Positions 3,918 to 25,974 of a stretch of DNA of 63,161 bases are shown one piece after another. A model generated the notes under the pieces. It saw nothing but the letters and a program-made list of their open reading frames with translations, was not told the DNA's origin and did no database searches. The stretch is from assembly GCA_937923175.1 (NCBI GenBank), contig CALALB010000015.1, positions 1 through 63,161 of the forward strand, read 5' to 3'. A program made the position numbers and the translations under genes. Positions within the stretch are counted from its first letter, which is position 1. Each line of letters begins with the position of its first letter. This DNA is from an uncultured Chromatiaceae bacterium. GTDB lineage: Bacteria; Pseudomonadota; Gammaproteobacteria; Chromatiales; Chromatiaceae.

Positions 3918-6900
3918 TTAGATTATTTTTTTGGGTTGAATTCTTTGCAGGTAAAGAGTCGCAAGCCTTTTATTTTTTTCGAGGAATAGCTGCATTAGAT
4001 TAAAGTGTCCAATTAGAATAGCTTTTTTTTGACTTGAACCAAGTGGTTTTTCAGGATATTTTTCTAAATTATTCTTTTGGCTAAGAGATAAAGTTATGCG
4101 GGTTGGATCGCTTAAATCTTTGATTTTAATGAATGGAAGCTCAGAATGCAGATTGATTGATCTGGTTTTATCATGTTGATCAAAATCAAATGGCATTCTT
4201 CCGGAATAGAGCGGATCGAGGTTTAGATTGATTCTCTCGACATAAAGTCTCCCAAGCATATGCTGGAGAGACTCGAGCGATGCAAAATCTTTTCTGCATA
4301 TAGAAACTGCAATGTGTTCACGCCCCTTGAGGATGTCTTCGACAAAGGATGTCAAAACATTACCTGGTCCGGCTTCAATAAAGACCCTAATTCCATCGCT
4401 ATAAACATTCTCAATTGTTTCTCTAAATCGAACTGTGTCGATCCATTGTTCGCAGGCAATCTGGGCAATCTCTGCTGGATCCCGTGGATATGGCTTAATG
4501 GTCTTGCAGCTGTAAACACTGAGATCCCCTGATTTAAACTCATGATGTTTTTTATAAAACTTTTTAAGTAGATCCATACCCTTTTCAAACAAAGGAGTGT
4601 GATAGGGGCGTCCAGAAGATGTCTCAGAATAGATTACCCCTAGCTGTTTGATTTGTTCTATAAAGCTGGGATAATGTTCTTCTGTGACAAAAAGAAATTT
4701 TTGATTTGGGCAATTATCTGCGGCTAAATAAACCGAATCATTATATTTTTCTAAAAGATCACTCAGATCTCGATCGTTTATTCCGCCAAGCGAGATCAAT
4801 CTGCCTTGGGGGAATCCAGAATTTTCAAGCTCTTGATAGATAAGACCGAGATGGTGTGACTGCTCTATAAATGATTCGATGGTCAATGAATCTGTTTGAA
4901 TCATACTTGCCGTATAAAGCGCGGCATATTCACCGATGCTATGTCCAACGATGGCATCGATTTGGATCCCGAGGTCGCAGATCAGCTCATGCAGTGCATG
5001 ATCGATGATACAGGTTGCCTGCGTTGCCAGATCAGGAGCGTGGAGTTCAGATAAGGCCCATCGCTCGCTTTCCGGATCGATCGAGGTCGGTGGCGGAAAG
5101 ATCAGGCTGGAGGGTCTCGGCTGACGCGGTGATACCTCATCGAGAAAATCAAACCAATATCTGATCTGTGGAAGGTATAAGGCAAGCTCCAAAAGCATAT
5201 TCGGATATTGCGCCCCCTCGCTTGACAAGAGTAGGGCAATGCCGCCCGCTGTAGTCGGTTGCTCGGCATAGTAGATCCCACGGCGGCTGAAAATTTGCGG
5301 ACGGGAGAGAGTTGGAAGATGGTCTTGGCATTGTTTGAGCTTAGTGCTTAGGTCCTTTAAATCTCGTGCAACGATTGCCAAACGAACTGCTCCCTGATTA
5401 CGCCCTTGCCATAACCGATAGGCCAATTCCGCAAGCTCAATAGCAGGTTCTTGATTTAAACGCCTCGATAATGCATCGATCTCTGCAAGTAGCTGGGCTC
5501 GCGACTCGGCTGCAAGTATGCAGAGCTCAGCCGGCCAATGTCGCATGTGCGGATTGGTTATAGGTCCAGCAATTTGAAGTGCGACCTGCCGCTTTTCGGG
5601 TGGAAGCAGCCAGCGTCCAAGACCTGGGTAGGCTGTTGGACCGGGTGCCCGATATTCTTCGAGGATGGCATGGGCATTGATTCCACCAAAACCGAAGGCA
5701 TTGATCGCTGCGCGCCGAGGTGTTTTGCCGCCGTGCACCCAGGGGCGGCCTTCAGTGTTGATATAAAAGGGCGTGCGCTCGAGCTCAAGCTCAGGATTCA
5801 CCTCCTCGCAGAGGGTTGGCGGCAGGATCTTGTGATACAGGGCCAAGGCGGTTTTGATTAGGCTCGCGATCCCGGCGGCAGGGATACAATGCCCGATCAT
5901 GGATTTCACCGAACCGATGGCGCAGTGCGGCAATCGCCCGCGGCGTTCGCCAAAGACCTGTCTTAAGGCCAAAATCTCGGTGCGGTCTCCAAGAGGGATA
6001 CCTGTCCCATGCGCCTCGATCAGCTCGATGGTCTGGGGATCAATCCCGCTGTGTTCATAAGCGCGCCGAATCGCCAAGGCCTCGCCTTCGAGGCGCGGCG
6101 CCATTAAACCCATCGCCTTGCCATCGCTGGCGATCCCAATCGATTTCAGAACGGCATAGATGCGATCGCCATCGCGCACCGCATCTGGGAGACGCTTAAG
6201 CACCGCAAAGCCTGCCCCTTCGCTCAGCAGGGTTCCGCTGGCCTTGGCATCGAATGGGCGGATCCGATCCTCGGCGAGTGCACCGAGTTGCTGGAAGAGC
6301 ATATAGATCTGGGGCGGCATCGAGGCCTGGACGCCGCCGACTAATACCATCTCGCAACGGTCTGAACGCAGTTCGCGCATGCCCAGATCCGCAGCAATCA
6401 GACTAGAGGCACAGGCGGCATCGACGAGATAGCTCGGCCCCATCAGATCGAGTCGATTGGCGATCCGTCCGGCAATGATGTTCGAAACCAGGGTCGGTGC
6501 ATGTTCGATCCCAACCGGCGGCAGACCTTGCTTGAGCTGCTCACGCAAATGCTGCCGGTGCTGCTCATCCAGTTCAGGGATCAGTTGGCCGATCAGCTCG
6601 AGGGTTTGGTCGATGAATAGACCATACTGCAAACCCAGGACATCCCCCCGGTTTGGGTTTGAGCCATGCCCGATGATGATCCCGGTACGCTCGCGGTTAA
6701 ATGGTCTTTCCCAATAACCTGCATCGCGCAAGGCGTCGGCGGCAAGCTGCAGCGCCAGAAAATGGGCAGGATCCCCCTCAACCGCCTTTGGCGGGATCCC
6801 AAAGACAAGAGGATCAAAACGCGCAAGCTCGCCCAAGAGACCTACTTTACGGGTGCGGATTCGGGCCGAGACGAGGCTTTGGTCTGGACAAGCGGGGTCA

Positions 6901-7052
6901 TACCAGGGCAGGGCCCAATGATCTGGGGCATCCTGGATCTGGTCGTGTTTATCCAGGATATTGCGCCAAAATCGATAAACATCAGCGCTTCCAGGAAAAA
7001 TCCCGGAAAGACCGATGATCGCGATGTCCTCCTGATCGGCAGGGCTCGACAT
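3918..7052 (-). CDS. KS-AT polyketide synthase subunit (PfaB/HglC-like)
   Basis: A 1044-residue protein with a ketosynthase (about 9-467) and an acyltransferase-like region (about 600-950). The KS is complete: DAACASS with nucleophile C214, EAHGTG with H348, and GSVKSMIGH with H388. The AT keeps GHSIGE (S705), but its usual oxyanion-loop signature, normally like FPGQGSQY, reads LLSSEGAQY. There is no ACP, KR or DH, so it must act with the large PKS encoded just upstream (25-bp gap), much as PfaB or HglC act with their partners. It probably primes, or adds a second condensing/acyl-transfer activity. The coding DNA for the last 400 residues is markedly AT-rich compared with the rest. It is the last gene of the operon; no further domain follows the AT. 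KS assignment is secure, AT activity less so. Confidence 0.9.
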   Translation of the reverse strand: MSSPADQEDIAIIGLSGIFPGSADVYRFWRNILDKHDQIQDAPDHWALPWYDPACPDQSLVSARIRTRKVGLLGELARFDPLVFGIPPKAVEGDPAHFLALQLAADALRDAGYWERPFNRERTGIIIGHGSNPNRGDVLGLQYGLFIDQTLELIGQLIPELDEQHRQHLREQLKQGLPPVGIEHAPTLVSNIIAGRIANRLDLMGPSYLVDAACASSLIAADLGMRELRSDRCEMVLVGGVQASMPPQIYMLFQQLGALAEDRIRPFDAKASGTLLSEGAGFAVLKRLPDAVRDGDRIYAVLKSIGIASDGKAMGLMAPRLEGEALAIRRAYEHSGIDPQTIELIEAHGTGIPLGDRTEILALRQVFGERRGRLPHCAIGSVKSMIGHCIPAAGIASLIKTALALYHKILPPTLCEEVNPELELERTPFYINTEGRPWVHGGKTPRRAAINAFGFGGINAHAILEEYRAPGPTAYPGLGRWLLPPEKRQVALQIAGPITNPHMRHWPAELCILAAESRAQLLAEIDALSRRLNQEPAIELAELAYRLWQGRNQGAVRLAIVARDLKDLSTKLKQCQDHLPTLSRPQIFSRRGIYYAEQPTTAGGIALLLSSEGAQYPNMLLELALYLPQIRYWFDFLDEVSPRQPRPSSLIFPPPTSIDPESERWALSELHAPDLATQATCIIDHALHELICDLGIQIDAIVGHSIGEYAALYTASMIQTDSLTIESFIEQSHHLGLIYQELENSGFPQGRLISLGGINDRDLSDLLEKYNDSVYLAADNCPNQKFLFVTEEHYPSFIEQIKQLGVIYSETSSGRPYHTPLFEKGMDLLKKFYKKHHEFKSGDLSVYSCKTIKPYPRDPAEIAQIACEQWIDTVRFRETIENVYSDGIRVFIEAGPGNVLTSFVEDILKGREHIAVSICRKDFASLESLQHMLGRLYVERINLNLDPLYSGRMPFDFDQHDKTRSINLHSELPFIKIKDLSDPTRITLSLSQKNNLEKYPEKPLGSSQKKAILIGHFNLMQLFLEKNKRLATLYLQRIQPKKII

Positions 7053-7077
7053 GACACCTCTACAGGATCGATGGGGA

Positions 7078-10000
7078 TCAGATACAGGGTTGATAAAAGT
7101 CCGGTTGGGGTGCTAAGCGATTGAGCCCGGGATCGCAATGGGCCTCGATCCCTGCAAGCGCGAGGATCAACCTTCCGTCCTCATCGGTGAGGATAAAATC
7201 GACCTCGAGCTCAGGACCGGTAAAACGGCGGACCCTCTGGGTAAAGCGTAAATGCCGAGCCCCAGTTGGGCGGGATGATATTGGGACAGAGGCGGATAGG
7301 CGCATGACCCGCCTAAATCGGCTCGGCAGTGGATAGGTGTGGTGCTGGATCCGGGCCCAGAGGATAGTGCTCTGGAGTAAGGCGTCGACAACACCAGGAT
7401 CGATCAACCATTGGGCGGCACGGATCTGGGGCAAGCCGGCAGCAGTTGTATCGCCCAACCAAGCGCGCGGGTCGCTTGCCTGCACGCTGCCCTCGACCCC
7501 CTCGGCCCCTATCCGCAATACCCCCTGCAACAGTCGAAAACAGGGCCCATGAAAACAATGTTCGACATAGGCCCGTTCTGCAGGAAACAGCTGAGCCTCG
7601 GTTAAGGGTGGGGGTAAGGCGACAGGCTGGAGGCTACCACCGAGGATCAGGTTGGCGCGGTAATAAGGGTGATCCCCCTCCCGGATCTCGGCCAAGACCT
7701 CGAGCCGGGTCTCTGATTTGTGGATGAGCTGGGCCCAGAGCGAGAGCTCGCGCCCTTGCTCACCCTGAAGGGTCAGGCCGCGTAAGACGCGCAGATCGCG
7801 CACCTCGGTTAGAGGCTGATCCGGCCAGGCAGTCTGGACAAACTCGGCCAGCAGCTCTAGGGCTACAGCTGCTGGAACCACTGGGACGCCATCGAGCCGA
7901 TGGTCATTGAGATAAAGGTCGCGTTTGAGCTCAAGGCGATAGCTCCCCCTGAGTTGACCGTTCCCATCAGGTCTCAGACGCCGGTTACCCAGCATGGGGA
8001 GGATCATGGGCGGCTGAAAGCGCCCCACGATCAGCTCGACCTCATCGAGCCCACGGGCGAGCTCCTCGCGGATAAAGCGACGCCCTGAGTCTGGATCGAT
8101 AGGGATCACCCCGCGCGCCTGAAACTGGCGGTTGATCGCCTCATTGGCCATCCCTGTCCCTGACCAAGGCCCCCAATTGAGTGCCAGCACCCGCGTCTTC
8201 GGCCAGCTGCCCTGCATCCACCAGGCCAGCCGATTGATGATCTCGTTGGCCGCCGCATAGTCGCATTGGCCGATATTTCCCGTACGCCCGGCAACTGAGG
8301 CAAAAAGCAATACCAAGCGAAGGGTCTCCGGGCGCAGCGCGCGGCAGAGCAGATAGGTGCTATCGGCCTTCAGATCAAAGATCCGGATAAATGAATCCAA
8401 TGATTTATCAACCAGCAACTTATCCTCGATCTGACCGACCCCCTGAAGCACGGCATCGATGCGCCCATAGTGGCGATAGATCCCATCGATCAGCTCGAGC
8501 AGGGCCTGATGGTCCCGGACATCGAGCGCATGATATTCGACCCGGGCACCGCAGGCGCGAAAGGCCGCTAGATGGGAGGCAATCTCGGCTGCGCGCAGGG
8601 TTTGTTTGATCCGGCGCTCAATGGTCACCGGGGTAGCCGCTTCACCCCGCGCCTGGGCCTGGGCGAGATAATGGGCGCGCAATTCGGACTCGGTGCGTCC
8701 TTGCAGCGGATCATCCTCAGCAAGGGGCAGCAGGCGTCCCAGGATGATCAGGGTCATCCCGGGGACGATGAGCTCGTGGAGGATCTGGGCGGTGATCCCC
8801 CGGGCGCCGCCGAGCGCAAGCACCACCCAGTCGCTAGCCGGCTCAACCGGCTGGCGACTGGGCGCTGACCAAGGCGCTGCAATCGGTTCCCAGGTCAAAC
8901 GTTTTCCATCTTGGTAGCTGATCTCAATCGCTTCATCCTCCCCCAAAAATTCATCGATTAGGATCTCGGCAAGCGCCTCTTCGGGCCCTGCTGCCAGGTC
9001 GATTGCCTTGACCTGGACCTCGGGCCACTCGAGCTTGAGGGTCTTGAGCATCCCGAGATTACCAGCGGCAAGGGGTAGACCCGGCCCACAACGCCCATTG
9101 CGTCCAAAGGCGCCGCCGAGTAAAGAGGCAGATAGGATGCGACCGCGCTGGGCGCGCAAATCTTCGGCACATGCCTTAAGCAATAGGAACAATGACTTCA
9201 CCTGGGCAAACGACTCAGCCTGCCAGGCTGTTAACTCGGACGGTAGATCCATGGCCTTCAGGCCGGCAAGCTGGATCAGACCAGCGATCGGACCATTGCG
9301 GGCGCGCAGCGCCAGAATGGTCTGGGATAGGGTTTCAGGGTCTATATCCTGAGGTGCGAGCTGGTTTGCGCAAAGCCCTGCGTCCTTGAGCATCTGGATC
9401 AGCCGCTCAGCCGTCCCCCCCTCGCCAAGTACCAGGATCTGACCGGCGGGTAACTGAGCGCGCTTGGGCGGCGGGGCAGCGCGCGCGACCATGCGATAGC
9501 GGTCAAGCGGCTGCGCCGACTCAGCAGGCGACTGGGGTTGGGGAAGCGGCGTGGCGCGGCCAGTTGCCATTCCCCTTGTCTGGCTGGCTGTCGCTGATAA
9601 AGGAACCCCTGACCCCGGCGAGGGGGTTGAGCCAGACCGGGGCTGGCTTGTCGGCCCACCTGAGCCGGTCGGGGGATCCTGGGGCCCCAAGCTCAGTAGG
9701 ACATCGACGAGGGCATGGATGGTCGGGGCGCGGCTGAGGCGGTTCATCTGCGCCCGCATAGTCTCAGCAAGCTGGGGCGGCAATAGGCGCTCGATGTTGG
9801 CGAGGATTTCGACCCGTTTGATCGAATCGATCCCGAGCTCAGACTCTAGGGCCTGATCAGGGTCCAACAGCTCTGGGGGATAACCGGTGCATTCGCTGAT
9901 GATCGCGGTGATCTGGGCGATCAATGTCGAGCGATCGGGAAGCGAGGACACCTGCTGGATGCTGCCGTACTCCTCACTCACCGACTCTGCGGCTGGTGCA

Positions 10001-13000
10001 GGTGGCGACATGCTTGGGGCTGGGGCGACGGCGGCTTGAGGCACTGAGGGGCGATATTGGCGAGCCGCCGGCCGATCGGGTCGGGCCTCCGGCAGGGTTG
10101 GGTAGGTTGTAGATTGGGTTAGCGGCGCCTGTGACTCGGCCATCTCTCCAGTATCTGCCGGCTGCTGGCCGCCCAAGAAGCTGGTCATCACCCGCTCCTG
10201 GACCTCCAAGAACTTGCGCATGGTCTCTTGATAGGCCTGCCAGACGGCAAGCAGGGTATCGGTATCCGGCTGGGATGAACCAGACGACGTCTGGGCAGGC
10301 CCTAGGGCGCCCGTCTGGGTTTCTGAGGATCTTTCAGACATCACAGGCACTCTCTGAATGTTTGTGCTGGGAATAGGGGGCATCTGAGCGGCTGCTGCGA
10401 CAGTCGGGGTTGGCAGTTGCGCGCATTCGGTGAGCGACTTGGGGCGAATCACAGGACGCGGTCCTTCTTTGCGCACGCCCCCGCCGCTGACCCAAAAGGT
10501 CTGGGAGGAGGGAAGGGCGACCGCCAGCCGTGTTTGCTCCGCCTCTACAAGCCGGCCTGCAAAAAGCGGCCCCGGATCAAAGGTATAGCCAGCGACGAAC
10601 AGGCCACCGAGCGCATTCAACAGACCGCGCATCCCGCCATCTGCACCATCGAGGGCGATCGCCCGATGGGGTCTGTCGGCCAGGATCCTTGAAACCAGAC
10701 CGCAGAGCACCGCCCGCGGCCCGACCTCTAGAAAACAGCGAGCGCCCGCAGCATAGATGGCCTCGATCTGGGCGACGAACTCGACTGGGCTCAACAGATG
10801 ACGGCTCAAGCGGGCTCGGATCGCATCCGGCTCAGCGGCGGGATAGGGTCGGCCATCGAGATTCGAATAGACCGGCAGGCGGGGGGGGCGGATCTCGACC
10901 GCAGCGATGGCCTGGTCAAGGATGCTAGCTGCCCCCGCCATCAGGGGCGAATGAAAGGCACCGCTGACCGACAGCGGACGGATGGCGATCCCCTGCAGGC
11001 GCAGACGCTCGCTGACTGCTGCCAGCTCCGCAGGACCGCCCGAGAGCACACATTGGTCAGGGGCATTGTGATTGGCTACAACGACCGCGGTATCGCTTAA
11101 AGGTTCGGCAAGCGTCTCGGGCGCTGCTCTCACCGCGATCATTCCCCCCTCGGGCGCCTGGGCCATCGCCTGACCGCGCCGATAAGAGAGCCAGATGAGA
11201 TCCTCGAGCGAGAGCGATCCTGCAGCCGCAAGGGCGACATATTCGCCATAGCTGTGCCCAGCGACAAATGCCGGCTGGATCCCCACCCTTTGTAACAGCG
11301 CCCAATAACCCAGGCTGATTGCCCCAAGGGCCGGTTGGGCGATTCTGGTCTCGGTCAGAGCGCGCTCGGCTGACTCGAGCGCCTCCTGATCCCATAAGCG
11401 CCGCGGCCAGAAAAAATGGGACAATGGCCGATCGAGATGCTCGCGCAATACCCGCTCGCTGCCTTCGATCGTCTGGCGCATGGGCTCCCAATAGAGGGCG
11501 ACCTCGCGTCCCATCCCCAGATACTGAGAGCCTTGCCCAGGAAAGAGCATGGCCAAAGGCCCTGGCTCAGTCAGTCCTAACCCCAATTGGAGATGCGGCG
11601 GCAAAGGCACCCCTGACTGGTCGGTCAAATGACCTCTGATCCTCATCAGGGCATCGCTGAGCTCGGTATGATCGCGGACGACGAGCGCAGCGCGATAGGT
11701 TGCGGCGCAACCAGGCTTGACAGCCTCGGCACACTCGGCAGCCAATTGGCTCAGGGACAGGGATCGATCGCTTAGACGCTGCTCCAGGCGGTCGAGCGCT
11801 GCGACCAGACCCCTTTGGTCATCTGCTGCCAATAGGATCAACTCGCATGGCCAAAGGTCGCTTCCCGGCGGTGGCTCGCGCGAGGGATCGCGATATTCTT
11901 CAAGCACACAGTGACAGTTGGTCCCGCCGAATCCAAAGGCGCTGACCGCAGCGCGCCTGGGGTGCGCTGGGGCCAACCAGGGATGGGGCTCGCGCAGCAG
12001 CGCCAATGGGCCTTGCGGATCGGTGAAGGGCGCAAGCGGCCTGATGACAAATGGCTGAGCCGGCAGGGTGCGATAATAAAGCGCCAAAGCGGCCTTGATC
12101 AGACCGCTGACCCCGGCGGTTGCCTTGGTATGGCCGATCAGTGCCTTATGCGAGCCCACTACACAGTTGGCTGGGGGTGCGCCTTGTTCAGCGAGAAAAC
12201 CGGCAATGCTCGCGACCTCGGTTTCATCGCCCAGCGGCGTGCCTGTGGCATGGGCCTCATAAAGGCCCAGGGTCGCCGGATCGGTCCCCGCCTTTTGATA
12301 GGCGCGCAGGAAGGCGCGCCGCTGACCCTCGAGGCGCGGGGCAGTCAGCCCCACTGCCTTGCCATCGCTGGCGCTGGCGGCTGACTTGATCACCGCATAG
12401 ATGCGATCGCCATCGGCCTCGGCCTCGGCGAGGCGTTTGAGCACCACCATGGCAGTCCCTTCGCCGAGCAGGATCCCATCGGCCTCGGCATCGAATGGTC
12501 GGCTATGATCCTTTGGGGTTAGGGCAGGGGTCTTTGAGAAACACAGATAGCCAAAGGGGGAGAGCTTGGTATCCACCCCGCCGGCGATGGCTAACCGACA
12601 GCGGCCGCTCTCAAGCTGGGCGACCGCAAGCTCAATAGCGGTGAGCGAGGAGGCGCATGCCGAATCCACGACGAAATTGGCCCCGCCCAGATCGAAGCGA
12701 TTGGCAACCCGCCCAGCGATGACATTCAGCAGGATCCCCGGGAAGGTATCCTCAGTCCATTCAGGTAGATCCTCCAGAAGCGGGCCGGGGTCGACAAGCC
12801 GCGCGGTCAGCTCCGATCGCGTCACATAGTGCTCGCCAAGCTCACCTAGACCACCGCTTGCCCCGATGATGACCGCAGTCTGTTCATGGTCAAACTCGCC
12901 CTCCAGATAGCCCGCATCAGCAAGGGCGCGGCGCACTGCCTCAAGCGCCACTAATTGCATCGGATCGATCGAATCAAGCGCCTTGGGGGGGATACCGAAG

Positions 13001-15255
13001 CGGGTGGGATCAAAGGGGATCTCATCGATCAGACAACCCCATTTCGAATAGACCCGGTCAGGTGCCTGGGGATCTGGGTCGTAATATAGACGCCAGTCCC
13101 AGCGTTCGGGTGGGATCTCGGAGATAGCTGGGATCTGGGCGAGCAGGTTGTGCCAAAACCCGGGGGCTGATTGCGCCCCAGGGAGGATGAGCCCGATCCC
13201 GATGATCGCGATATCACTCGGCTGCGGGACGGGTGGGGAGAGTCTCGGTTCAGGCCAGGCGATCGGCAACTCGCACAGCGTCCGGTGGAGCTCGGCTATG
13301 CCGATCACCTGATCGCGCAAGGCTGCCACCTGACCGATCATGAAGAACCCTTCTTGATATTGGGTCTTCGGATCGATCGTCATGATCTCTGGGCCCTGGC
13401 GTATGAGACCCTTGGCTGCCAGACGCAGACGCCCCAGACAGAGATCATCTAGGGCCTGGCTGATTTCAGACTGGGTACGACCCTCAGCGCGCAGTCGCTG
13501 CGCCGTCTCTTTGAAGGTATCGACAAAGGGGGTGAGGGCGCAGCGGGATGCATGGCCTGGCCCAGTCTCCAGGGTTAGGGTCTCTCGGCAGGCAAGCGCC
13601 TCCTGCTGAAAGACGGGGGTGATCGCCCCTGTCTGGAGTGCTTCATGGGTAAAGAGATAGGCCGTCCCGATCAGGATCCCGATCTGCGCCCCGCGCGCGG
13701 TCAAAGGGGCGGCCAGGGCCTCGATCCATTGGGTCGAGCGCCGGTCATGGATACCGCCTGCAAATAGGAGCTTGAGCTCGCGGATGAGTGGCCCGGGCAA
13801 CTCGAGCAGGTTTGCCACCACCCCTTCCCATAAGGCAAATCCGCCCAGGGGGCCTACATGTCCCCCGCATTCGCGACCTTCAAAGATCAGACGGCGCGCA
13901 CCCTGTTCGATATAGAGCCTGGCAAGCGCCGGGGTTGGGGCATGAAGCCAGGTGGGGATTCCTGCCTCCTCAAGGGTCCTGGCCTGATCCGGGCGGCCGC
14001 CAGCGATCAGGGCGCAGCTCGGTTTAAATCGCAACACCCAGGCGATCTGGGCGGCAAGAAGCTCAGGGGGGGCAAAGCCCAACAGGCCGACCCCCCAGGG
14101 CCTGGATCCCAACTTGGCCTGGGTTTCGGCAAGCAGGGATTCGACCCGCTTTGGTTCTAGCAGGGCCAAGGCGAGCATCGGCATGGCCCCGGCCTCGGCG
14201 ATGGCAAGGGCAAATTCAGGCCGGTCGCTGACCCGGGTCATCGGCCCCTGGACAATCGGATAGCGGGTCCCCAAGGTGCGCGCCAATGGGCCATCGGCCC
14301 CAAGCTGGGGGGCAAGGCGTACCTGGCTTAGAATCCGCTCGCCTTCGTTGTAGATAGCGCGGATGAGGCGACCAACCGTGCGATAACGCTGTCGAAGCCG
14401 CCCGGCCTCGCCGATCCCCTGGCCGATTGGCCAGGCATAGGCATCCGGATCGCCCCACCCGACCAGTGCCCGGGCCTTGTCCCGCCAATTGGGGTCCTGT
14501 TCGCTGACTAGACGCAATTGTTCGACCGCCGGCCAGCCCGGCCGCCTCAGCACCCGCAGGCGCGGTTGCTGGAGGTCTTGATCGCCAAGCAGCAGGCTAT
14601 CCTGACCGCTACAGCCAGCCAGCCGGTCCTTCCAGGCAGGTGGCAAAGGGGATTCAGGCAGCTGCCAAAGCGCATCATCGAGCACGACCCCCTGGGCCCC
14701 TGCTGCCCAACAGGCGCTGGCGGTATAAACCCCGATCGCACCCTGCAGATAGACTGGCCATTGTCCACGGCGCAACAGGCCCTGGAGCAGGATGAAGGCC
14801 GATTCAGATCCACACCAACCGCCCGCCTCCTGGCCTTTGCCGACAAGCCCTGCAAGCGGCAGCCTGGGGTCTAGGTCATCAGCCTGTTTAAGGCAAGTGA
14901 TCTCAAGCAGGAGACGCGGCTGACCTAGGCTGCTGAGTTTGGACAGATCCTCAGCAAGGGTTGAATGGTGCCAACCGGCCAGGATGATCCAGGGCGGCGT
15001 CAGTTGGAAACATTCGAGCAGTCCAGGGTCAGTGATGAGCTCGATCTGCTCAGCCAGGAGCCTTAGCCCGACCATCTGGCCTGGTTGCAGCTGGGTACTA
15101 AGTTCAAACAGGGTCTGTTTGAATCCGGCAAAGGACCGAGCGGGGCAGCCTTCTAAATCGAACAGGCCAATGCCGCCAGCACGCGCCGTTGCCAAGACCA
15201 GCGCCGGCGACCCCAGGGCAGCTGGGCTGAGGGTCAGGCAGATAAAATCATTCAT
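7078..15255 (-). CDS. Multidomain PUFA-synthase-like type I PKS (ER-like x2, KS, AT, ACP, KR, DH)
   Basis: A 2725-residue iterative-type PKS. Residues 1-300 and 310-640 are two tandem nitronate-monooxygenase/PfaD-like FMN barrels: the first has KGQEAGGWCGSES (140-152), the second RECGGHVGPLGG (461-472). Then come KS 680-1122 (C867, H1002, H1042), AT 1233-1565 (GHSYGE, S1335), a Pro/Ser-rich linker with a helical FLEVQERVMTSFLGG motif (1682-1696), and one ACP 1773-1857 (ELGIDS, S1811). A KR follows at 1935-2412 (GGARGIT 2149-2155, S2320, Y2333), then a hot-dog DH at 2437-2705 (H2452, D2624). All steps of a full reductive cycle are present, so it could build a saturated or partly unsaturated acyl chain. 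No thioesterase or phosphopantetheinyl transferase is seen. Its ATG overlaps the previous stop (ATGA), so translation is probably coupled. Domain calls are strong; the product is unknown. Confidence 0.95.
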   Translation of the reverse strand: MNDFICLTLSPAALGSPALVLATARAGGIGLFDLEGCPARSFAGFKQTLFELSTQLQPGQMVGLRLLAEQIELITDPGLLECFQLTPPWIILAGWHHSTLAEDLSKLSSLGQPRLLLEITCLKQADDLDPRLPLAGLVGKGQEAGGWCGSESAFILLQGLLRRGQWPVYLQGAIGVYTASACWAAGAQGVVLDDALWQLPESPLPPAWKDRLAGCSGQDSLLLGDQDLQQPRLRVLRRPGWPAVEQLRLVSEQDPNWRDKARALVGWGDPDAYAWPIGQGIGEAGRLRQRYRTVGRLIRAIYNEGERILSQVRLAPQLGADGPLARTLGTRYPIVQGPMTRVSDRPEFALAIAEAGAMPMLALALLEPKRVESLLAETQAKLGSRPWGVGLLGFAPPELLAAQIAWVLRFKPSCALIAGGRPDQARTLEEAGIPTWLHAPTPALARLYIEQGARRLIFEGRECGGHVGPLGGFALWEGVVANLLELPGPLIRELKLLFAGGIHDRRSTQWIEALAAPLTARGAQIGILIGTAYLFTHEALQTGAITPVFQQEALACRETLTLETGPGHASRCALTPFVDTFKETAQRLRAEGRTQSEISQALDDLCLGRLRLAAKGLIRQGPEIMTIDPKTQYQEGFFMIGQVAALRDQVIGIAELHRTLCELPIAWPEPRLSPPVPQPSDIAIIGIGLILPGAQSAPGFWHNLLAQIPAISEIPPERWDWRLYYDPDPQAPDRVYSKWGCLIDEIPFDPTRFGIPPKALDSIDPMQLVALEAVRRALADAGYLEGEFDHEQTAVIIGASGGLGELGEHYVTRSELTARLVDPGPLLEDLPEWTEDTFPGILLNVIAGRVANRFDLGGANFVVDSACASSLTAIELAVAQLESGRCRLAIAGGVDTKLSPFGYLCFSKTPALTPKDHSRPFDAEADGILLGEGTAMVVLKRLAEAEADGDRIYAVIKSAASASDGKAVGLTAPRLEGQRRAFLRAYQKAGTDPATLGLYEAHATGTPLGDETEVASIAGFLAEQGAPPANCVVGSHKALIGHTKATAGVSGLIKAALALYYRTLPAQPFVIRPLAPFTDPQGPLALLREPHPWLAPAHPRRAAVSAFGFGGTNCHCVLEEYRDPSREPPPGSDLWPCELILLAADDQRGLVAALDRLEQRLSDRSLSLSQLAAECAEAVKPGCAATYRAALVVRDHTELSDALMRIRGHLTDQSGVPLPPHLQLGLGLTEPGPLAMLFPGQGSQYLGMGREVALYWEPMRQTIEGSERVLREHLDRPLSHFFWPRRLWDQEALESAERALTETRIAQPALGAISLGYWALLQRVGIQPAFVAGHSYGEYVALAAAGSLSLEDLIWLSYRRGQAMAQAPEGGMIAVRAAPETLAEPLSDTAVVVANHNAPDQCVLSGGPAELAAVSERLRLQGIAIRPLSVSGAFHSPLMAGAASILDQAIAAVEIRPPRLPVYSNLDGRPYPAAEPDAIRARLSRHLLSPVEFVAQIEAIYAAGARCFLEVGPRAVLCGLVSRILADRPHRAIALDGADGGMRGLLNALGGLFVAGYTFDPGPLFAGRLVEAEQTRLAVALPSSQTFWVSGGGVRKEGPRPVIRPKSLTECAQLPTPTVAAAAQMPPIPSTNIQRVPVMSERSSETQTGALGPAQTSSGSSQPDTDTLLAVWQAYQETMRKFLEVQERVMTSFLGGQQPADTGEMAESQAPLTQSTTYPTLPEARPDRPAARQYRPSVPQAAVAPAPSMSPPAPAAESVSEEYGSIQQVSSLPDRSTLIAQITAIISECTGYPPELLDPDQALESELGIDSIKRVEILANIERLLPPQLAETMRAQMNRLSRAPTIHALVDVLLSLGPQDPPTGSGGPTSQPRSGSTPSPGSGVPLSATASQTRGMATGRATPLPQPQSPAESAQPLDRYRMVARAAPPPKRAQLPAGQILVLGEGGTAERLIQMLKDAGLCANQLAPQDIDPETLSQTILALRARNGPIAGLIQLAGLKAMDLPSELTAWQAESFAQVKSLFLLLKACAEDLRAQRGRILSASLLGGAFGRNGRCGPGLPLAAGNLGMLKTLKLEWPEVQVKAIDLAAGPEEALAEILIDEFLGEDEAIEISYQDGKRLTWEPIAAPWSAPSRQPVEPASDWVVLALGGARGITAQILHELIVPGMTLIILGRLLPLAEDDPLQGRTESELRAHYLAQAQARGEAATPVTIERRIKQTLRAAEIASHLAAFRACGARVEYHALDVRDHQALLELIDGIYRHYGRIDAVLQGVGQIEDKLLVDKSLDSFIRIFDLKADSTYLLCRALRPETLRLVLLFASVAGRTGNIGQCDYAAANEIINRLAWWMQGSWPKTRVLALNWGPWSGTGMANEAINRQFQARGVIPIDPDSGRRFIREELARGLDEVELIVGRFQPPMILPMLGNRRLRPDGNGQLRGSYRLELKRDLYLNDHRLDGVPVVPAAVALELLAEFVQTAWPDQPLTEVRDLRVLRGLTLQGEQGRELSLWAQLIHKSETRLEVLAEIREGDHPYYRANLILGGSLQPVALPPPLTEAQLFPAERAYVEHCFHGPCFRLLQGVLRIGAEGVEGSVQASDPRAWLGDTTAAGLPQIRAAQWLIDPGVVDALLQSTILWARIQHHTYPLPSRFRRVMRLSASVPISSRPTGARHLRFTQRVRRFTGPELEVDFILTDEDGRLILALAGIEAHCDPGLNRLAPQPDFYQPCI

Positions 15256-16748
15256 CTTGAATCCTGGGCTGGGTGATTGCCGAGCCAGACCTCAAGCCCG
15301 CCTTGGGGATTGTCCTGGTAGATCCATTGGCCGCCGTCGCGCACCGCCACCCGGGGTCCGAAGGGATTGGCGGTACCGATGAATAGCCCCTCAGGGGTCG
15401 AGACAAGGTTGCGGCAGCCATAATTGTAGGGGTTGCCAAAGCCTGTGCGGGTGACCGGCAGCCAGTTTTCGCCATCCCAGCTCCGCCACAGGTCAAAACC
15501 GCCGTGCAAGCGGATGAATTCCTCAACGCCTGCCTTCGCCAGCAACCTTGCCGAACGCCAAGGTCGTACCTGCAGATCGAGATAACGCAGGATGATGCTC
15601 CAATCCATGGTGCCGGCATAAAGCCAGTTATCATGAACGCCGAGGCGCCAGATATAACCGCAGAAATAATTGCTAAACCCTGGACCCAGTCCTGAGAGCG
15701 GCTCCTTGCCATCGCGCGCCTCGCCGACCACGATCTCCCAACTGCCATCCTCGGCGATCCTAAGCAGCTCAGCGGCTGCAGGGCCGATCTGAAAACGGTG
15801 ATCATAGCCGCCGTTTTGGATACCGGTTCCGACATAGAGATGATCCCCAAAGGCCAGCATGCTGACTGCCCCCTGATTCAGCGCGCCGCGCCCTGCGCCC
15901 TTGCTGATCACCTGTTCCCAACGATAGGGCGGATTGCCCTCGGCGCGGGTGCGCCAGATCTGCAGGCCATGCAGGCCCCCAGTCCCCGCATAGAGATAAC
16001 CATGGCAGACCGAAAGCTCATAGACGACGGCGACCTCGGGCGGTTCTCCAAAACCCGGGTCATTGACCGACCGCCAATCGCCTAAGGCAGGATCGCGGCT
16101 TTCAAAGACCAGGGTACTCAAGGCTGCATTGACATGGCCGTGGCTGGCACCGGTCGGCGCAGTAAACAGCCGCCCTTTGAAAGGGACCAGGCTACGGATG
16201 GCAGTGATCACAAGCTCGGCGTTTTGGCTGCGAAAATGGGGCTTGGGCAATGTCTCGAAGCATTCACCATCCTGGGAGCGCAGGATCTCTGGGCCGTCGC
16301 CGCGCGAGCGCGACCAGGTCGCGACATAAAGCGCAGGCTCGGGATCCGATTCGCCCTGAAAGACACACATTGCCCGATAGCCGAGGTCACGGCTAAAGCC
16401 TGTCCCGTCCCGCGGGTCAGTGACCATGGGCGCCTGATAGCAGCGCAGCCAGCGGTCCTCCTTGGGCTCATAGCGCCAGATCTCCCCACGCGCGGCCTGA
16501 GTTTCAAACTCAGGGGTATAATTGCGATGCGGGCATTCCACTGGCCAGGTGTCGATGTGCACATAGGGCATGGCAAATTTCAAAAGACAGAGGTTCGCCC
16601 GGCCGGTGCCGATGTATAGCCGATTTTTAAACCAAGCGGCTGAATAGGCATAGGCGTTATAGCCATCGCCTAGGCCATTTGCACAGATTCGGCGGAAATG
16701 CTCAGCGCGCAGTCCAGGTCTGGGCTCGGGATAGGTGTGAAGGCTCAT
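15252..16748 (-). CDS. Propeller-like protein of the PKS operon
   Basis: A 498-residue protein with recurring units such as NRLYIGTGRAN, GYLYAGTGGLHGLQIWR, DHLYVGTG, NWLYAGTMDWS and EGLFIGTANPFG. Each is a hydrophobic strand followed by (Y/F)xGT and an aromatic residue, the pattern of a beta-propeller such as Kelch or sialidase-like folds. There is no signal peptide or membrane segment, so it is probably cytoplasmic. I know no biochemical function for it. It resembles the 357-residue protein at 23443-24516 (shared xELLRxxxxSxW, SxLGP and LWxGT blocks), so each operon carries one copy. The ATG at 16748 overlaps the TGA of the preceding ACP-sulfotransferase gene and is preferred over a start 12 bases upstream. 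It could be a scaffold or an uncharacterised enzyme. Confidence 0.8.
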   Translation of the reverse strand: MSLHTYPEPRPGLRAEHFRRICANGLGDGYNAYAYSAAWFKNRLYIGTGRANLCLLKFAMPYVHIDTWPVECPHRNYTPEFETQAARGEIWRYEPKEDRWLRCYQAPMVTDPRDGTGFSRDLGYRAMCVFQGESDPEPALYVATWSRSRGDGPEILRSQDGECFETLPKPHFRSQNAELVITAIRSLVPFKGRLFTAPTGASHGHVNAALSTLVFESRDPALGDWRSVNDPGFGEPPEVAVVYELSVCHGYLYAGTGGLHGLQIWRTRAEGNPPYRWEQVISKGAGRGALNQGAVSMLAFGDHLYVGTGIQNGGYDHRFQIGPAAAELLRIAEDGSWEIVVGEARDGKEPLSGLGPGFSNYFCGYIWRLGVHDNWLYAGTMDWSIILRYLDLQVRPWRSARLLAKAGVEEFIRLHGGFDLWRSWDGENWLPVTRTGFGNPYNYGCRNLVSTPEGLFIGTANPFGPRVAVRDGGQWIYQDNPQGGLEVWLGNHPAQDSR

Positions 16749-18055
16749 CGTGCCTCGCATCGATAGCCAAGCTGCTGGGCCAGGGCCCGAGTCTGATCGC
16801 TCAGGTCATCCTCAGACAAAAATTGCCGCCAGCGATCAGCAGCCGTGGGGTCGATTCCGGCATGAAGATGCAATTTGAGGTCGCCGCTCAGTTCACCGAT
16901 CCGGTATAGACCATCGATCATCCGCTGGTGCCGATCCCGATATAGATCGAGCATTGCTGGCTCGAACCCTAAGCCGAGAAAGGCACATAAACCCCTAAGG
17001 ACCTGTTCAGGCGCTTTGACCAAGTCCTCGTAGTAAACGCGATATTGCCGACTTGGCGGGATGCTTGCCAGATGCTCAAGGATGTTCTGATTACAGATCA
17101 ACCAGGCCAACTCACCCCAGTGCGCGGATGCAAAGGTACCGGCATGCCGTTGCATAAAAGGGGCGGTGCGCTCGAGCTGGACCTCGACGAATGAGCGGAT
17201 CATGCCCCCGGGATGACGCACGAGATGGATATAAAGGGGGTGGTCGAATGACTGCTCAGCGCGGGCCAAAACCTGGAGCGAGTAAGCATAGGCAGGGGTT
17301 TTATCGACAAGCAAGCGATCACCGAGTTGACCCTGCAACCAGCGATAGAAGTCCAGGACCCCGAGGCGCTCTTGTTCATAGCGCTCAAGTAGGGATTGGG
17401 CCTCCTCGATCGTCAATCCAGTGAGGGCCATGACCGCACGGATCACGCCGGTGATGAGATGTCGGTTAGTGTCAAGTTGAAAGGCGGCGCGCCGCTCGCC
17501 AAGATCCAGATACCAGAGGAGATGCAACTCAGGGGGGGCAAAAAGCTTGGGATGCCCAGCAAGCAGACCTTGCAGGAGGGTTGAGCCTGAGCGCGGTGCG
17601 CTCAAGACAAAAACGGCAGGCGGATTTTTATGGCTAACCGCCGGCCAGGGTAAGGGCGCAGGAAGCATGCTGCGAAAGCGCGCAATGTCCGAGTCGGTCA
17701 GATGTACCCTCGTGGCAGGGGAGGGGGTAGGGCGGGCAGGGCGTATCTGCGGGTGCGCCTGGGGTTGAGGGCCCTGGCGCAAACGCTGCTCGATGAAACC
17801 GATCAGCTCTCCGATTTCAAGCTCAGCGACATAGCGCCCCTCCACCAGGATCAGGTCATGAAACCCGAGCTTGCGCCCAAGGACCTCCTCGATCCCGACG
17901 AATAGATCGACCAGATCGACCGAGGTGAGACCCAGATCAGCGAGCAGACGAGTCTTGTCGTCTAAGCGCTCGGCCCAGCCCTCGAACTCCCAGTCGGGCA
18001 CGAGCTTAGGCAAGAGGGAGCTCAATAAGGCGCGAATCTGGGGGCGGTCGGTCAT
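16745..18055 (-). CDS. ACP-sulfotransferase didomain protein
   Basis: A 436-residue protein and the first gene of the PKS operon. Residues 1-95 form an acyl carrier domain with [11 protein letters not shown], where S45 would carry phosphopantetheine. After a Pro-rich linker, residues 145-435 form a PAPS-dependent sulfotransferase. The 5'-phosphosulfate loop is [11 protein letters not shown] (152-162), the 3'-phosphate motif [10 protein letters not shown] (280-289), and DKTP (251-254) and PELHLLW also fit. ST domains fused to or placed beside an ACP are known from CurM and cyanobacterial olefin synthase. There they sulfate a beta-hydroxyacyl-ACP so that a thioesterase can release a terminal alkene. 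A thioesterase is missing here. Whether this protein sulfates the chain made by the adjacent PKS, or another hydroxyl, is inference. Both domains look catalytically complete. Confidence 0.9.
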
Positions 18056-18130: not shown

Positions 18131-19036
18131 ATGGATCTTACACCGCCCCTGATCCTGTTGGCCTCCCCTGGTTCGCACGCCGCCTATCTTGCGGCGATGC
18201 TGGGTAGGCATCCTAGGCTTTATGCGCCACTTGAACTCAACCTATTGGCAGCACCATGCCCCCTTGACCTTTTGAAGACCCTCGAACCCGATGAGCTCCA
18301 TGGCCTGCTCCGTTCAGTGGCCCAACTCTATGCTGGCGAGCAGACAATTGAGTCCATCGAGATGGCGCGCCGTTGGTCGTTTCGACGCGCCAACTGGGAC
18401 AGCGCCGAGGTACATCGCGAGCTGTGCGCGCGGGTTGCACCCAAGCATTTGGTCGAGACCTGTATCCTGTATACCCGACCTGCTCAGGCCGAGGCGCTCG
18501 CCAGGCTTGGTTCTGTCTATCCGGATGCCTGGTATCTCCATCTTGTCCGCCATCCCTTGGCGGTTGGACGCGATTGGTGGCGCAATCTGCAGGCCTTGCC
18601 CGAGCTTTATCGGCTCGGCTCGCGCGACCCCTCGACCCAGCCACCGCTACCCGATCCGCAATTCGACTGGTTGCAGCGCCAGCGTCTGATCCTTGAGTTT
18701 TTGCGCACCATCCCACCTGAGCGCCAGCTTCGCCTGCGGGTCGAGGATCTATTGGCCGAACCGCGTTTGACCTGCGTCCGGTTGTGTCTCTGGCTGAGGC
18801 TGGATGCGAGAGAACAGGTCATTGAAGAGATGCTGCACCCCGAGCGCTCGCCCTATGCCCGCCCAGGACCCTATGGCGCCGAGGGTGGGGCAGAGTGGGC
18901 GTTTTTGCTCCATCCCCAACTCCCTCCCCCCGATCCTAACCCAGTGTCCTTGACCCAGCCCCTGCCTTGGCGACCAGACGGACGCGGCTTTGTGCAGGAG
19001 CTGATCGATCTTGCCCAATCCTTAGGGTATGCCTAG
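18131..19036 (+). CDS. Sulfotransferase-like protein with degenerate PAPS loop
   Basis: A 301-residue member of the same sulfotransferase group as its neighbours: RHPRLYAPLELNLL (26-39) and LHLVRHPLAVGRDW match the PELHLF and 3'-phosphate motifs, and it ends in the shared AQSLGY tail. The 5'-phosphosulfate loop, PPRSFSS in the paralogs, is ASPGSHAA (11-18), with the conserved arginine lost. It may therefore be inactive or bind another ligand. It is the only plus-strand gene of the island: divergent from the PKS operon and tail-to-tail with the HlyD fusion gene, 6 bp apart. There is no signal peptide. Fold assignment is good; enzymatic activity is doubtful. Confidence 0.8.
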   Translation: MDLTPPLILLASPGSHAAYLAAMLGRHPRLYAPLELNLLAAPCPLDLLKTLEPDELHGLLRSVAQLYAGEQTIESIEMARRWSFRRANWDSAEVHRELCARVAPKHLVETCILYTRPAQAEALARLGSVYPDAWYLHLVRHPLAVGRDWWRNLQALPELYRLGSRDPSTQPPLPDPQFDWLQRQRLILEFLRTIPPERQLRLRVEDLLAEPRLTCVRLCLWLRLDAREQVIEEMLHPERSPYARPGPYGAEGGAEWAFLLHPQLPPPDPNPVSLTQPLPWRPDGRGFVQELIDLAQSLGYA

Positions 19037-19042
19037 CCAACC

Positions 19043-21520
19043 CTAAGGCAGCCAGGACCACACCTCGATGGCAAAAAAACGGATCAAAGGCCGGGCAAGC
19101 TGGAGATAAAGCGGTTTGGTACCGCTGGTGACCTTGCCATAGCCAGACATGCCAGGCGTGAGTAGGCGATCCTCGGCAGCGAGCTCGATTAATAGCCTAA
19201 AAGTTTGCCCAGTGAGTGAGGGTGTTCCTGTAGGCTCGATGGCGAGCAGTTGACCTGCCAAGGGACGTTCGGGATAGGTCTGCAGACGGATCTCCGCAGG
19301 GGCCCCTACTGGCAATTCAGAGACCTCTGATTCGGGGAGGACAAGCTCGACGAGCGGACGGCGCCTCGCCTGGGCAGTGGCGAAATGATCGCCTTGGGTC
19401 AGATAGATCCCCTCCTTTTGCTGGAGATGGCCTTCGACCAGATAGCCGGCGAAAGGCATGCGCAACTGGGTGCCGGCAAGCTGGGATTGGGTATAGGCAA
19501 GCGCCTGCTCTAGACGGCGCAGGTTGGCTTGGCTGGCAGCAACCCCCTGCTGAGCGATCTCGATCTCCTCGGGCTGCGGGCCATTGAGCAATAGGGCGAG
19601 CTCAGCCTCGCTTTCAAGCAATGACTTGCGTTTTGCCTCCACAACCCTTTCTTGCTCAGGAATGCGTAACCGATCGATAGCGGCCTGTTTCTCGATCCGG
19701 GTTATCTCGACCTCAGAGAGCACACCCTTGGGTAAATCCCGGATACGATCAAGTTCGCGAGCGCTATAGGAGGCAGTGACCCGGGCGATCGTCAGCTGCT
19801 GTTCTGCGATCCACACCTCCTCTTGGGCCTGTTCGAGCCGGGCCCTGGCCTCTGCTACCAATTCGGGTCGGGAGCCAGCGATCTTGAGGGCGAGTTCGGC
19901 ACGGCGTTGGGCCAGGATGGCCTGTTGTTCCTGGATCTGTTCGCTCAGCTCCTTGATTTGCTGTTCAACCGTATCGGCAAGGATCAGGGCGACCGTCTCG
20001 CCAGCGGCAAGCAGAGCCCCATCTCCGCCGCGTTGCAAAACCCGGATAATGCGACCCGAGACTGGGGCCTGGATCGCCTGTTGCTCGGGGGCAAGCAGGG
20101 TCACTGGTCCACCTGGGCGGTAAGGGAATGGCAGGATCAGAATCAGGCCCAAGAGTCCCAGGGCGATCAAACGCGTCGCCTGCCCACCAGGGATTGCCGT
20201 TTTTGAGGCGGTTGCCTCTGATTCGGGGAAGGCCGCGCCGCCCCCCGGCGCGGGATCCTGAGACCCTTTCAGCAAGCCCTGATTGGAGATGTTAGGTTCA
20301 GGGGTAATCCACCCGAGGCGTTCGAGCCGCTGCCAGCCCCAGCGCAGCATCAGCAAAGCCACCAGCAACGCGATCAGGGCCTGGGTTGCCTCACCAAAGA
20401 GCTGAGGGAAGCTTGCGTTAAGCCCCTGGGTGATATGGGTGAAGATGCGCCAAAAGGCAAAGGCCCAAAAGGCGCCTAAGGCCAAGGCATACAGCACTAA
20501 ACGCTGAGCTTGACCTCTGGAGATCGAGGTCGGCAGCGGCTGGTTGCGTAGGCGCGCATACAGCACATAGCCGGCAAGCTTGAGTGTCGTCAGCGGCAAA
20601 CCCCGCCAGGTCATCAACCAGCGATAGCCATCCGAGTTGCGCACCGGCAAACTGACCAGGATGAGACCGATGAGCCCGGCGTGGGCAAGGATGAGTGCGT
20701 GGAGTGCGAGGTTGAGATGGCTTGTGCGCCAGATAAACCAGCCCAGCGTCCCCCCCGCAATCAAGACTAGGCGCAAGACCAGGTTTGAGCCCCAGATCCA
20801 AAGGCGCGCCTCGCGCTTCAGGTCAAGGACAGCATGCCGGTCGATAAAAAAACGCGGGATCACCCCAAAACGCAAACGGATCCCAAATGCCTGGCTTTTG
20901 CCCCCATAATACGCGATCAATATCCCCTGAATCAGACAGCGCGCCAGATTGATGACAAACAGACTTAAAAGCAGCCGCCAGAAATAGGAAGAGACCTGCT
21001 GAAGCTTGGCCAGATCCTGTTCCATCAGGATCTGATTCTCAAAGAGGGTATAAAAGGCAAGCGGAACCAATACACCAAGGCTTAGGGTCAATCCCTGAAA
21101 TGGCAGGCGCCAGGGGGCAACTCTATGAGACAGCCAGCTAAAAAGCGGCATGGGGTCAAACAGCACCCACCGCTCATCCTCATCGGTTTCCTCGCTGTCT
21201 GACTCAGACTGTTGGCGATCGCTGGCTGATTGGCGGTTTGCTAGTCCAGATGCTGGGAGATATTCAACGAGACCATTAGCAAAGGCCTCTTCAAGAAAGC
21301 GCTCGATCTCCTCGACCGCAAGCTGGGTATCAAAACGCGCATTGAACGCAGCAGCGATTGACTGACAATCGCGTTGCCCATCGAATAACTGGAGCAGGGC
21401 AAAGCTCTGGGGATCGAAGGCATAGCGCTCACCTTGCGGGGTTACAATCTCGATGGCACCGCCAGGCTGCGTATGGACCCTAAGATCTCGGCGCAGGCGA
21501 GCAGAGCAAGGGTTGGTCAT
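19043..21520 (-). CDS. PqqD-like / inactive M50 / HlyD fusion (transport-associated membrane protein)
   Basis: An 825-residue fusion. Residues 8-90 resemble a PqqD/RRE-type winged helix (YAFDPQSFALLQLFDG). Residues 140-400 are polytopic and align with the M50 site-2-protease core. The DGY motif persists (NSDGYR, 295-300), but the helix that normally holds HExxH reads NLARC (191-195), so the zinc site is gone. Residues 450-470 are a transmembrane helix. Residues 480-825 are an HlyD/biotinyl-lipoyl adaptor with a long coiled coil (about 516-700) and a beta-barrel end. M50-HlyD fusions occur beside peptide and lipid export systems. It is the last gene of the minus operon, 6 bp after a sulfotransferase gene. 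A partner ABC or RND transporter is not in the window. Role in export is inference. Confidence 0.85.
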   Translation of the reverse strand: MTNPCSARLRRDLRVHTQPGGAIEIVTPQGERYAFDPQSFALLQLFDGQRDCQSIAAAFNARFDTQLAVEEIERFLEEAFANGLVEYLPASGLANRQSASDRQQSESDSEETDEDERWVLFDPMPLFSWLSHRVAPWRLPFQGLTLSLGVLVPLAFYTLFENQILMEQDLAKLQQVSSYFWRLLLSLFVINLARCLIQGILIAYYGGKSQAFGIRLRFGVIPRFFIDRHAVLDLKREARLWIWGSNLVLRLVLIAGGTLGWFIWRTSHLNLALHALILAHAGLIGLILVSLPVRNSDGYRWLMTWRGLPLTTLKLAGYVLYARLRNQPLPTSISRGQAQRLVLYALALGAFWAFAFWRIFTHITQGLNASFPQLFGEATQALIALLVALLMLRWGWQRLERLGWITPEPNISNQGLLKGSQDPAPGGGAAFPESEATASKTAIPGGQATRLIALGLLGLILILPFPYRPGGPVTLLAPEQQAIQAPVSGRIIRVLQRGGDGALLAAGETVALILADTVEQQIKELSEQIQEQQAILAQRRAELALKIAGSRPELVAEARARLEQAQEEVWIAEQQLTIARVTASYSARELDRIRDLPKGVLSEVEITRIEKQAAIDRLRIPEQERVVEAKRKSLLESEAELALLLNGPQPEEIEIAQQGVAASQANLRRLEQALAYTQSQLAGTQLRMPFAGYLVEGHLQQKEGIYLTQGDHFATAQARRRPLVELVLPESEVSELPVGAPAEIRLQTYPERPLAGQLLAIEPTGTPSLTGQTFRLLIELAAEDRLLTPGMSGYGKVTSGTKPLYLQLARPLIRFFAIEVWSWLP

Positions 21521-25474: not shown

Positions 25475-25974
25475 GAGGATTGCTGTAACTCGGCGGCGCG
25501 GATGGCGACGCTGAGGGCATCGCACTCGCGCTGGGTTTCAGCGAGCATGAGGCCTAACACTCGGAGGCGATAATCTGCCCGGGCATACAGTGCCTTAAGC
25601 TCTTCTGGGCTTGAGTTGGTCGGTATCTCCTCGGTCTCGACGCTCGCCAACCATTCGCCAAACTCGGCCCGTAACTGGGGAAGCTCCTCAATCAGTTCAG
25701 CATACTGGGCCAGCCGACCGAGCGGCTCGGCTTGAAGGGATAAAGCACGGCTATCTGGTTGTTTGGGCGCGCGCCGACGCCGGCGCCATTCAGCAAGATC
25801 GGCTCGACTCAGCCCCTTCCCTGTCTCATCCTTTTGGATAGGACGCACGAAGAGCGCAAGCATCCCCAGCCCTTCGATATCTGACCACTCAGACTCGCGT
25901 TCCTCGCCAAAGGCAGCGCGTAAGCGCTCGAGGATTGCGGCATTGCGTTGGGTTCGGGACTTTTCTGCAGGCAT
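25471..25974 (-). CDS. Unknown protein, first gene of the sulfotransferase operon
   Basis: A 167-residue charged, mostly helical protein that I do not recognise. The first part contains GLSRADLAEWRRRRRAP, a basic helix; the rest (about 90-165) is heptad-rich and could form a helical hairpin or coiled coil. It has no cysteine motif, signal peptide or membrane helix. A longer frame reaches 26223, but the ATG at 25974 is preferred because the upstream part is low in coding character and runs into the flippase promoter region. Its stop overlaps the next gene's ATG (ATGA), so it is surely co-expressed with the sulfotransferases. It might be a regulator or an accessory subunit; nothing in the sequence decides. 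Confidence 0.6.
   Translation of the reverse strand: MPAEKSRTQRNAAILERLRAAFGEERESEWSDIEGLGMLALFVRPIQKDETGKGLSRADLAEWRRRRRAPKQPDSRALSLQAEPLGRLAQYAELIEELPQLRAEFGEWLASVETEEIPTNSSPEELKALYARADYRLRVLGLMLAETQRECDALSVAIRAAELQQSS

Follow-up and report, generated by a model that had tools for sequence, protein, structure and literature searches.

What might be made by a gene row that joins a polyketide synthase (PKS) of the polyunsaturated fatty acid (PUFA) kind to a sulfotransferase (ST) fused to an acyl carrier protein (ACP)? The question is raised by contig CALALB010000015.1 of an uncultured Chromatiaceae bacterium (assembly GCA_937923175.1), whose full 63,161 nucleotides, here called the window, make up the entire contig C15 of a 2.5-Mb genome with 91% completeness. 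An initial annotation had described one operon of four genes, encoding a ketosynthase-acyltransferase (KS-AT) subunit, the PKS, a propeller-like protein (PROP1) and the ACP-ST. These reading frames do lie on one strand with the ends first given, but the unit extends to position 25974 and comprises eleven genes (3918-25974). The further seven encode three STs, another propeller, a hydrolase, a small protein and an HlyD-like adaptor, and one of them, the ST gene ST2, is on the opposite strand. The cluster is an apparently undescribed variant of the PUFA/HglE-like synthase kind, and on sequence grounds its core of PKS, KS-AT, propeller and HlyD-like protein is one form of a cluster family that spans several phyla. 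That it makes a long-chain, probably sulfated lipid, which is released and exported, is in our estimate an even call.

The four-gene set is more than a chance grouping, since a synteny search of the kind first suggested finds the same order in two other Chromatiaceae, G034 and L020, at 48-73% identity. All four window genes have ATG starts, are free of internal stops and are spaced by 25, -4 and -16 bases from KS-AT through PKS and PROP1 to ACP-ST. G034 keeps the order and orientation of the ten larger genes (31-71% identity, PROP2 lowest) with a relative of the small protein next to them, and the metagenome-assembled genome (MAG) L020 has the same gene order, its KS-AT being cut by the locus end. 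Rhabdochromatium marinum carries eight of the genes (37-74% identity) on one contig, PROP1 being at its end, and its contig C7 holds matches to KS-AT and to the KS of the PKS. The distribution is patchy: neither a PROP1 match nor a full-length KS-AT was found in seven congeners (G001-G007), of which G003 has KS-domain matches.

Beyond the family Chromatiaceae, the PROP1 alignment was scanned against the genomes of 84,980 species, using two short patterns only, so that the number of loci is a lower bound. At least 70 loci were recovered, the match covering almost all of the protein in 69 and part of it in one (L088). Judging from record titles, they fall into seven phyla (Pseudomonadota, Cyanobacteriota, Verrucomicrobiota, Thermodesulfobacteriota, Nitrospirota, Myxococcota and Planctomycetota), though several loci come from MAGs and some phyla are represented by a single locus. 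Neighbors were counted within flanks of up to 10 kb per side, often cut, by tblastn at E≤1e-4 (the ST count excepted). Such flanks hold homologs of KS-AT in 42 of the 70 loci, of HLYD in 46 and of an Abhydrolase_1-type hydrolase in 49, together with a phosphodiesterase (35), a sulfatase-family gene (15) or an outer-membrane efflux protein (9). For 15 of the 28 loci with no KS-AT in the flank the whole genome was searched, and all 15 contain a KS-AT homolog (best E ≤5.5e-155). Among 74 relatives, full-length PROP1 and full-length KS-AT occur in the identical five genomes, KS-AT at E≤1e-227; some KS match at E≤1e-60 was found in 15, the best of the other ten reaching 2.6e-112, and G058 has a short PROP1 match only. 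The probability of this coincidence is 6e-8 if genomes are independent, which relatives are not. In a sample of the class, PROP1 was matched in 6 of 369 genomes, again by a short stretch in G058. A quick PROP1 tree (37 rows) places the Chromatiaceae next to cyanobacterial rows (97), which fits transfer and is no proof of it.

By Pfam, the PKS contains enoylreductase (ER, matched as NMO), KS, AT, carrier (PP-binding), ketoreductase (KR) and dehydratase (DH) domains, and it retains the KS cysteine, the AT serine, the ACP motif and the histidine motif of the DH. Its best NCBIfam model is that of PfaA (TIGR02813; 906.4 bits, short of the curated cut-off of 1010.1 bits), and PfaA is also the best-scoring model for the KS-AT subunit (504.5 bits), in which Pfam recognizes KS and AT. 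The initial description of a PUFA-synthase-like PKS with a separate KS-AT subunit therefore holds, the PKS being, as judged by its sequence, a PfaA relative that scores under the model cut-off. Its domain calls also stand except for the tandem ERs, of which only the second is firm; the first resembles it weakly in a profile comparison (hhalign E 0.0015, probability 17%) and shows no similarity to it by BLAST (E 0.077).

The proposed resemblance to PfaA is borne out by the top model but not in every feature. The Pfa-type order of KS, AT, ACP and KR within one subunit is present according to Pfam, but in place of the tandem ACPs of Pfa synthases there is one ACP motif. Relatives vary, with two motifs in L020, four in G070 and two PP-binding stretches in G034, and several ACPs are not universal in such clusters, according to the available text of a 2011 survey (PMC3098273). 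Where a Pfa-type second subunit pairs a KS with a chain-length factor (a KS lacking its cysteine), KS-AT has a single KS that retains it (DAACASS). In the related locus L047 this subunit is composed of KS-AT-DH-phosphopantetheinyl transferase (PPTase), and the window KS-AT lacks the last two parts. DH matches occur in 41 of the 70 related loci and PPTase matches likewise in 41. The source genome has one match to PF01648, on contig C65.

The closest described systems differ from the cluster in several respects. Pfa synthases and the 'secondary lipid' synthases of types A-T, as the available text of the survey presents them (PMC3098273), share its KS-AT-ACP-KR core and the PfaA model as best match. 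Types M-T have a PPTase with the hShxH form of motif P1b, to which 12 of 13 related second subunits conform (three of them judged by eye); the window KS-AT has no PPTase part. Compared with these types, the cluster has a PKS that begins with fused ERs and has a single ACP and a DH after KR, along with a cysteine-bearing second KS and genes for ACP-ST and propeller; the word sulfotransferase is absent from the survey's main text. Type O (Dinoroseobacter, Parvularcula, Gloeobacter) may overlap the cluster family, judging by host groups near some of the carriers, and 14 of the 20 types had no known product at the time (PMC3098273). The swf clusters of sponge symbionts likewise combine a mono-modular PKS/fatty acid synthase with an ST gene and have no known product; as their available description gives it, SwfA has the order KS-AT-DH-ER-KR-ACP, the ST forms a fusion with a thioester reductase and a radical S-adenosylmethionine gene is present, none of which was seen here (PMC3908369).

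HglE enzymes are iterative PUFA-like synthases, whose products are possibly exported through an adaptor system, and the cluster PKS is likened to them by this general description only. The available text of a paper on HglE evolution (PMC11804610) and that of PMC13291983 were found to contain no sulfotransferase, propeller or HlyD. The claim that no described pathway has this gene set stands within the open-access library that was searched, where no description of the cluster was found; most subscription papers fall outside it.

All four STs exceed the 27-bit cut-off of Sulfotransfer_3 (PF13469), with 110.6 bits for ACP-ST, 52.9 for ST2, 72.9 for ST3 and 74.6 for ST4, and they account for every Sulfotransfer_3 match in the source genome. 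The PAPS-loop arginine and 3'-phosphate serine, which contact the sulfate donor 3'-phosphoadenosine 5'-phosphosulfate (PAPS), are intact in ACP-ST, ST3 and ST4. A sulfated product is favored by these motifs, by the confinement of the genome's STs to the cluster and by an adenylylsulfate (APS) kinase domain encoded elsewhere in the genome. The ST2 proteins of the window, L019, L020 and G034 have G, H, H and N, respectively, in place of the arginine and D, T, C and A in place of the serine, and ST2 is probably inactive. Its position is kept in all four despite the loss of both residues, and ST2 is likely a pseudoenzyme under selection.

ACP-ST is the fusion that was first proposed. Its ACP half has no Pfam match at E≤0.001 and scores 21.7 bits against the NCBIfam ACP model, below the cut-off of 65, while its Ser45 is invariant in 7 of 7 aligned ACP-STs. 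Among solved structures the nearest are the STs of olefin synthase (OLS; E 2e-57) and CurM (E 4.7e-56), which, according to the available text of PMC3903477, act on ACP-bound β-hydroxyacyl chains; this kinship suggests that ACP-ST, too, would sulfate a chain held on an ACP. Matches spanning both its parts were found in four of the 74 relatives, all of them cluster-bearing (G000, G011, G034 and G070, in the last on another contig), and G009 has the cluster without such a match. In the class sample they occur in G000 and G070, and a match in G238 starts at position 36, inside a large frame. ACP-ST is complete in 8 of the 70 related loci and cut by the locus end in two more, and an ST of some kind is found in 39. 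A count of 58 loci for one protein family was not used for STs, because ACP-ST joins free ACPs and STs in that family.

These relationships raise the alternative that the cluster produces a long terminal alkene, as in the OLS and curacin A pathways: ACP-ST would sulfate the β-hydroxyl and the separate hydrolase would act as the thioesterase, with decarboxylation and loss of sulfate. The carrier-ST order and the alpha/beta-hydrolase-like gene within the cluster agree with it, as does a quick tree of 74 STs that unites the OLS and CurM STs with 11 ACP-STs in a single clade (100) apart from free STs. However, ACP-ST terminates with the ST, without the fused thioesterase of OLS and CurM; the cluster also lacks their fatty acyl-AMP ligase and has a PKS of another type. 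A more careful tree of 27 rows includes STs from other PKS and nonribosomal peptide synthetase (NRPS) proteins, the sequence behind each ST being judged by eye. Here OLS and CurM group with two STs that have a thioesterase-like stretch behind them and a long-branched one that does not (96/96), whereas the cluster ACP-STs form a separate clade outside it (88/94, not starred) and three STs with condensation-like sequence behind them fall outside both. This tree lowered the alkene from its place as the leading idea. In addition, the hydrolase finds nothing below E 0.05 among PDB sequences (three matches up to E 10), and an alkene would leave ST3 and ST4 without need. An alkene product is thus unlikely. 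Carrier-STs followed by condensation-like sequence occur in NRPS/PKS proteins of other Gammaproteobacteria (L112, L115 and L116), where sulfation does not have to lead to an alkene.

For a sulfated lipid, the genes suggest the following route. PKS and KS-AT would iterate like PUFA and heterocyst-glycolipid synthases to give a long chain, reduced for the most part. Either this chain or its last β-hydroxyacyl intermediate would be taken over by the ACP of ACP-ST, and the ST fused to that ACP would move sulfate from PAPS onto a chain hydroxyl. ST3 and ST4 may introduce more sulfates or work on the product after its release, with ST2 as a putative non-catalytic partner. The hydrolase would free the chain, the propeller serving as its scaffold, and the HlyD-like protein may contribute to export.

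The last of these steps draw on the remaining proteins. The propeller-like character of PROP1 is confirmed by a predicted structure (mean pLDDT 91.1, pTM 0.92) that Foldseek matches to many unrelated kinds of propeller, with TM-scores to the query of at most 0.47 among the 50 matches listed; PROP1 has no match in Pfam, NCBIfam, PDB sequences or plasmids. PROP2 shares 29% identity with its residues 261-386 (E 1.6e-5). A link between propeller and hydrolase is suggested by a shared frame in Pseudomonas alcaligenes (L087:8897-11479), composed of Abhydrolase_1 (PF00561), DUF6316 and PROP1, and by PROP1-containing frames of about 860 residues in 6 of the 70 loci and in L093, of which only L087 was domain-scanned. 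In L057 and others of the related loci, the hydrolase-PROP1 frame is preceded by one for a type I phosphodiesterase. The window hydrolase scores 259.5 bits against NF047580 (BPSS1187; cut-off 125). It was also considered as a relative of known thioesterases, which found no support (best E 0.089 among PDB sequences, no fold match at E≤0.001).

HLYD passes the cut-offs of HlyD_3 and HlyD_D23 (22.2 and 30) with 37.4 bits each; its PqqD-like start is below cut-off, and its membrane part is a sub-threshold match to M50-type LiaK. A role in export is proposed from the HLYD homologs and outer-membrane efflux proteins in the related loci. The HlyD-like protein of two Phormidesmis MAGs is split into adjacent membrane and adaptor frames (L054:17460-19728 and L066:8475-11214).

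Several observations weigh against a sulfated, exported lipid. No ST lies in the flanks of 31 of the 70 related loci, so sulfation need not be a general trait of the family, and the action of the STs on the PKS product is the weakest link of the proposal. A stand-alone carrier-ST of another type (423 amino acids, PP-binding and Sulfotransfer_3) is encoded in G015, a genome without PROP1, and the idea that such proteins are confined to the cluster was dropped. No gene of the cluster was recognized as an ABC transporter. A fold search with the hydrolase, whose model is poor (pLDDT 57.5), gave no match at E≤0.001, the 50 listed being for the most part alpha/beta-hydrolase-type peptidases, esterases and lipases. 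The initial suggestion of a sulfated or ST-processed lipid accordingly keeps three STs with intact PAPS motifs on its side and the ST-less loci against it, and is retained as an interpretation; a common lipid core with lineage-specific finishing steps would fit best.

The lipid could instead anchor a sulfated glycan or another envelope polymer, which the free STs would modify. The number of free STs speaks for this, as do the hydrolases of the AlkP superfamily in related clusters (the phosphodiesterase and sulfatase-family genes counted above) and the lipid/ST gene sets near capsule genes that the available text of PMC3908369 discusses for wcb/rkp-like clusters. Pfam and NCBIfam, however, identify no glycosyltransferase among the eleven genes, and the carrier fusion of the first ST points toward an acyl chain, which makes a polymer anchor improbable. 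Least probable is an unsulfated exported lipid whose STs have a different function or one since lost, for although the ST-less flanks include all eight Pseudomonas and five Rubrivivax loci (with an ACP match and a phosphodiesterase instead) and ST2 appears dead, three motif-intact STs hold their position over deep divergence in Chromatiaceae and ACP-ST starts the PKS gene row.

The sulfated lipid may be specified further, if tentatively. The family would make exported lipids across phyla by PUFA-like synthases marked by a propeller; in Chromatiaceae and some others ACP-ST would sulfate the bound chain and the free STs would follow, the sulfates being retained to give a multiply sulfated long-chain lipid.

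Table 1. Genes of the window cluster and their distinguishing features.
Gene product	Position	Strand	Length (amino acids)	Features
KS-AT subunit	3918..7052	-	1044	KS Cys, both His motifs and AT GHSIGE all present
PfaA-like PKS	7078..15255	-	2725	(ER)-ER-KS-AT-ACP-KR-DH, single ACP
PROP1, beta-propeller protein	15252..16760	-	502	marker gene of the cluster family
ACP-ST	16745..18055	-	436	N-terminal ACP (Ser45) and ST related to OLS/CurM STs
ST2, Sulfotransfer_3 protein	18131..19036	+	301	divergent from ACP-ST
HLYD	19043..21520	-	825	PqqD-like start, membrane part, HlyD adaptor part
ST3, Sulfotransfer_3 protein	21527..22468	-	313	intact PAPS motifs
Alpha/beta-hydrolase-like protein	22474..23412	-	312	GHSQG motif; NCBIfam BPSS1187 family
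PROP2	23443..24516	-	357	distant PROP1 relative
ST4, Sulfotransfer_3 protein	24521..25474	-	317	56% identity to ST3; PAPS motifs intact
Small protein	25471..25974	-	167	relatives in equal position in G034, L019 and L020

The eleven genes are laid out as two minus-strand rows with ST2 in between, divergently oriented at 75 bases from ACP-ST (Table 1). The second row runs from the small protein, which matched no family, through ST4, PROP2, hydrolase and ST3 to HLYD, its genes spaced by -4 to 30 bases. The GC content of the cluster (0.586, against 0.592 and 0.596) holds nothing that points to a recent transfer of the cluster as a whole. Within it, the KS-AT gene (0.508) differs from the adjoining PKS gene (0.628), and values of 0.52-0.54, likewise low, were found for ST3, ST4 and PROP2. 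Next to the cluster, a plus-strand gene at 26036-27157 belongs to the LPG_synthase_TM family (84 bits).

A conserved cluster family is thereby added to the PUFA/HglE-like synthases. Its propeller gene is an easy handle for finding it, and its cultured hosts include Rhabdochromatium marinum, Neptuniibacter, Rubrivivax and Lysobacter; Neptuniibacter marinus and Lysobacter sedimenti carry the version with ACP-ST, Rubrivivax gelatinosus the one that lacks an ST. The stand-alone ACP-ST, with no alkene-forming thioesterase behind it, offers a direct test of the purpose of carrier-bound sulfation.

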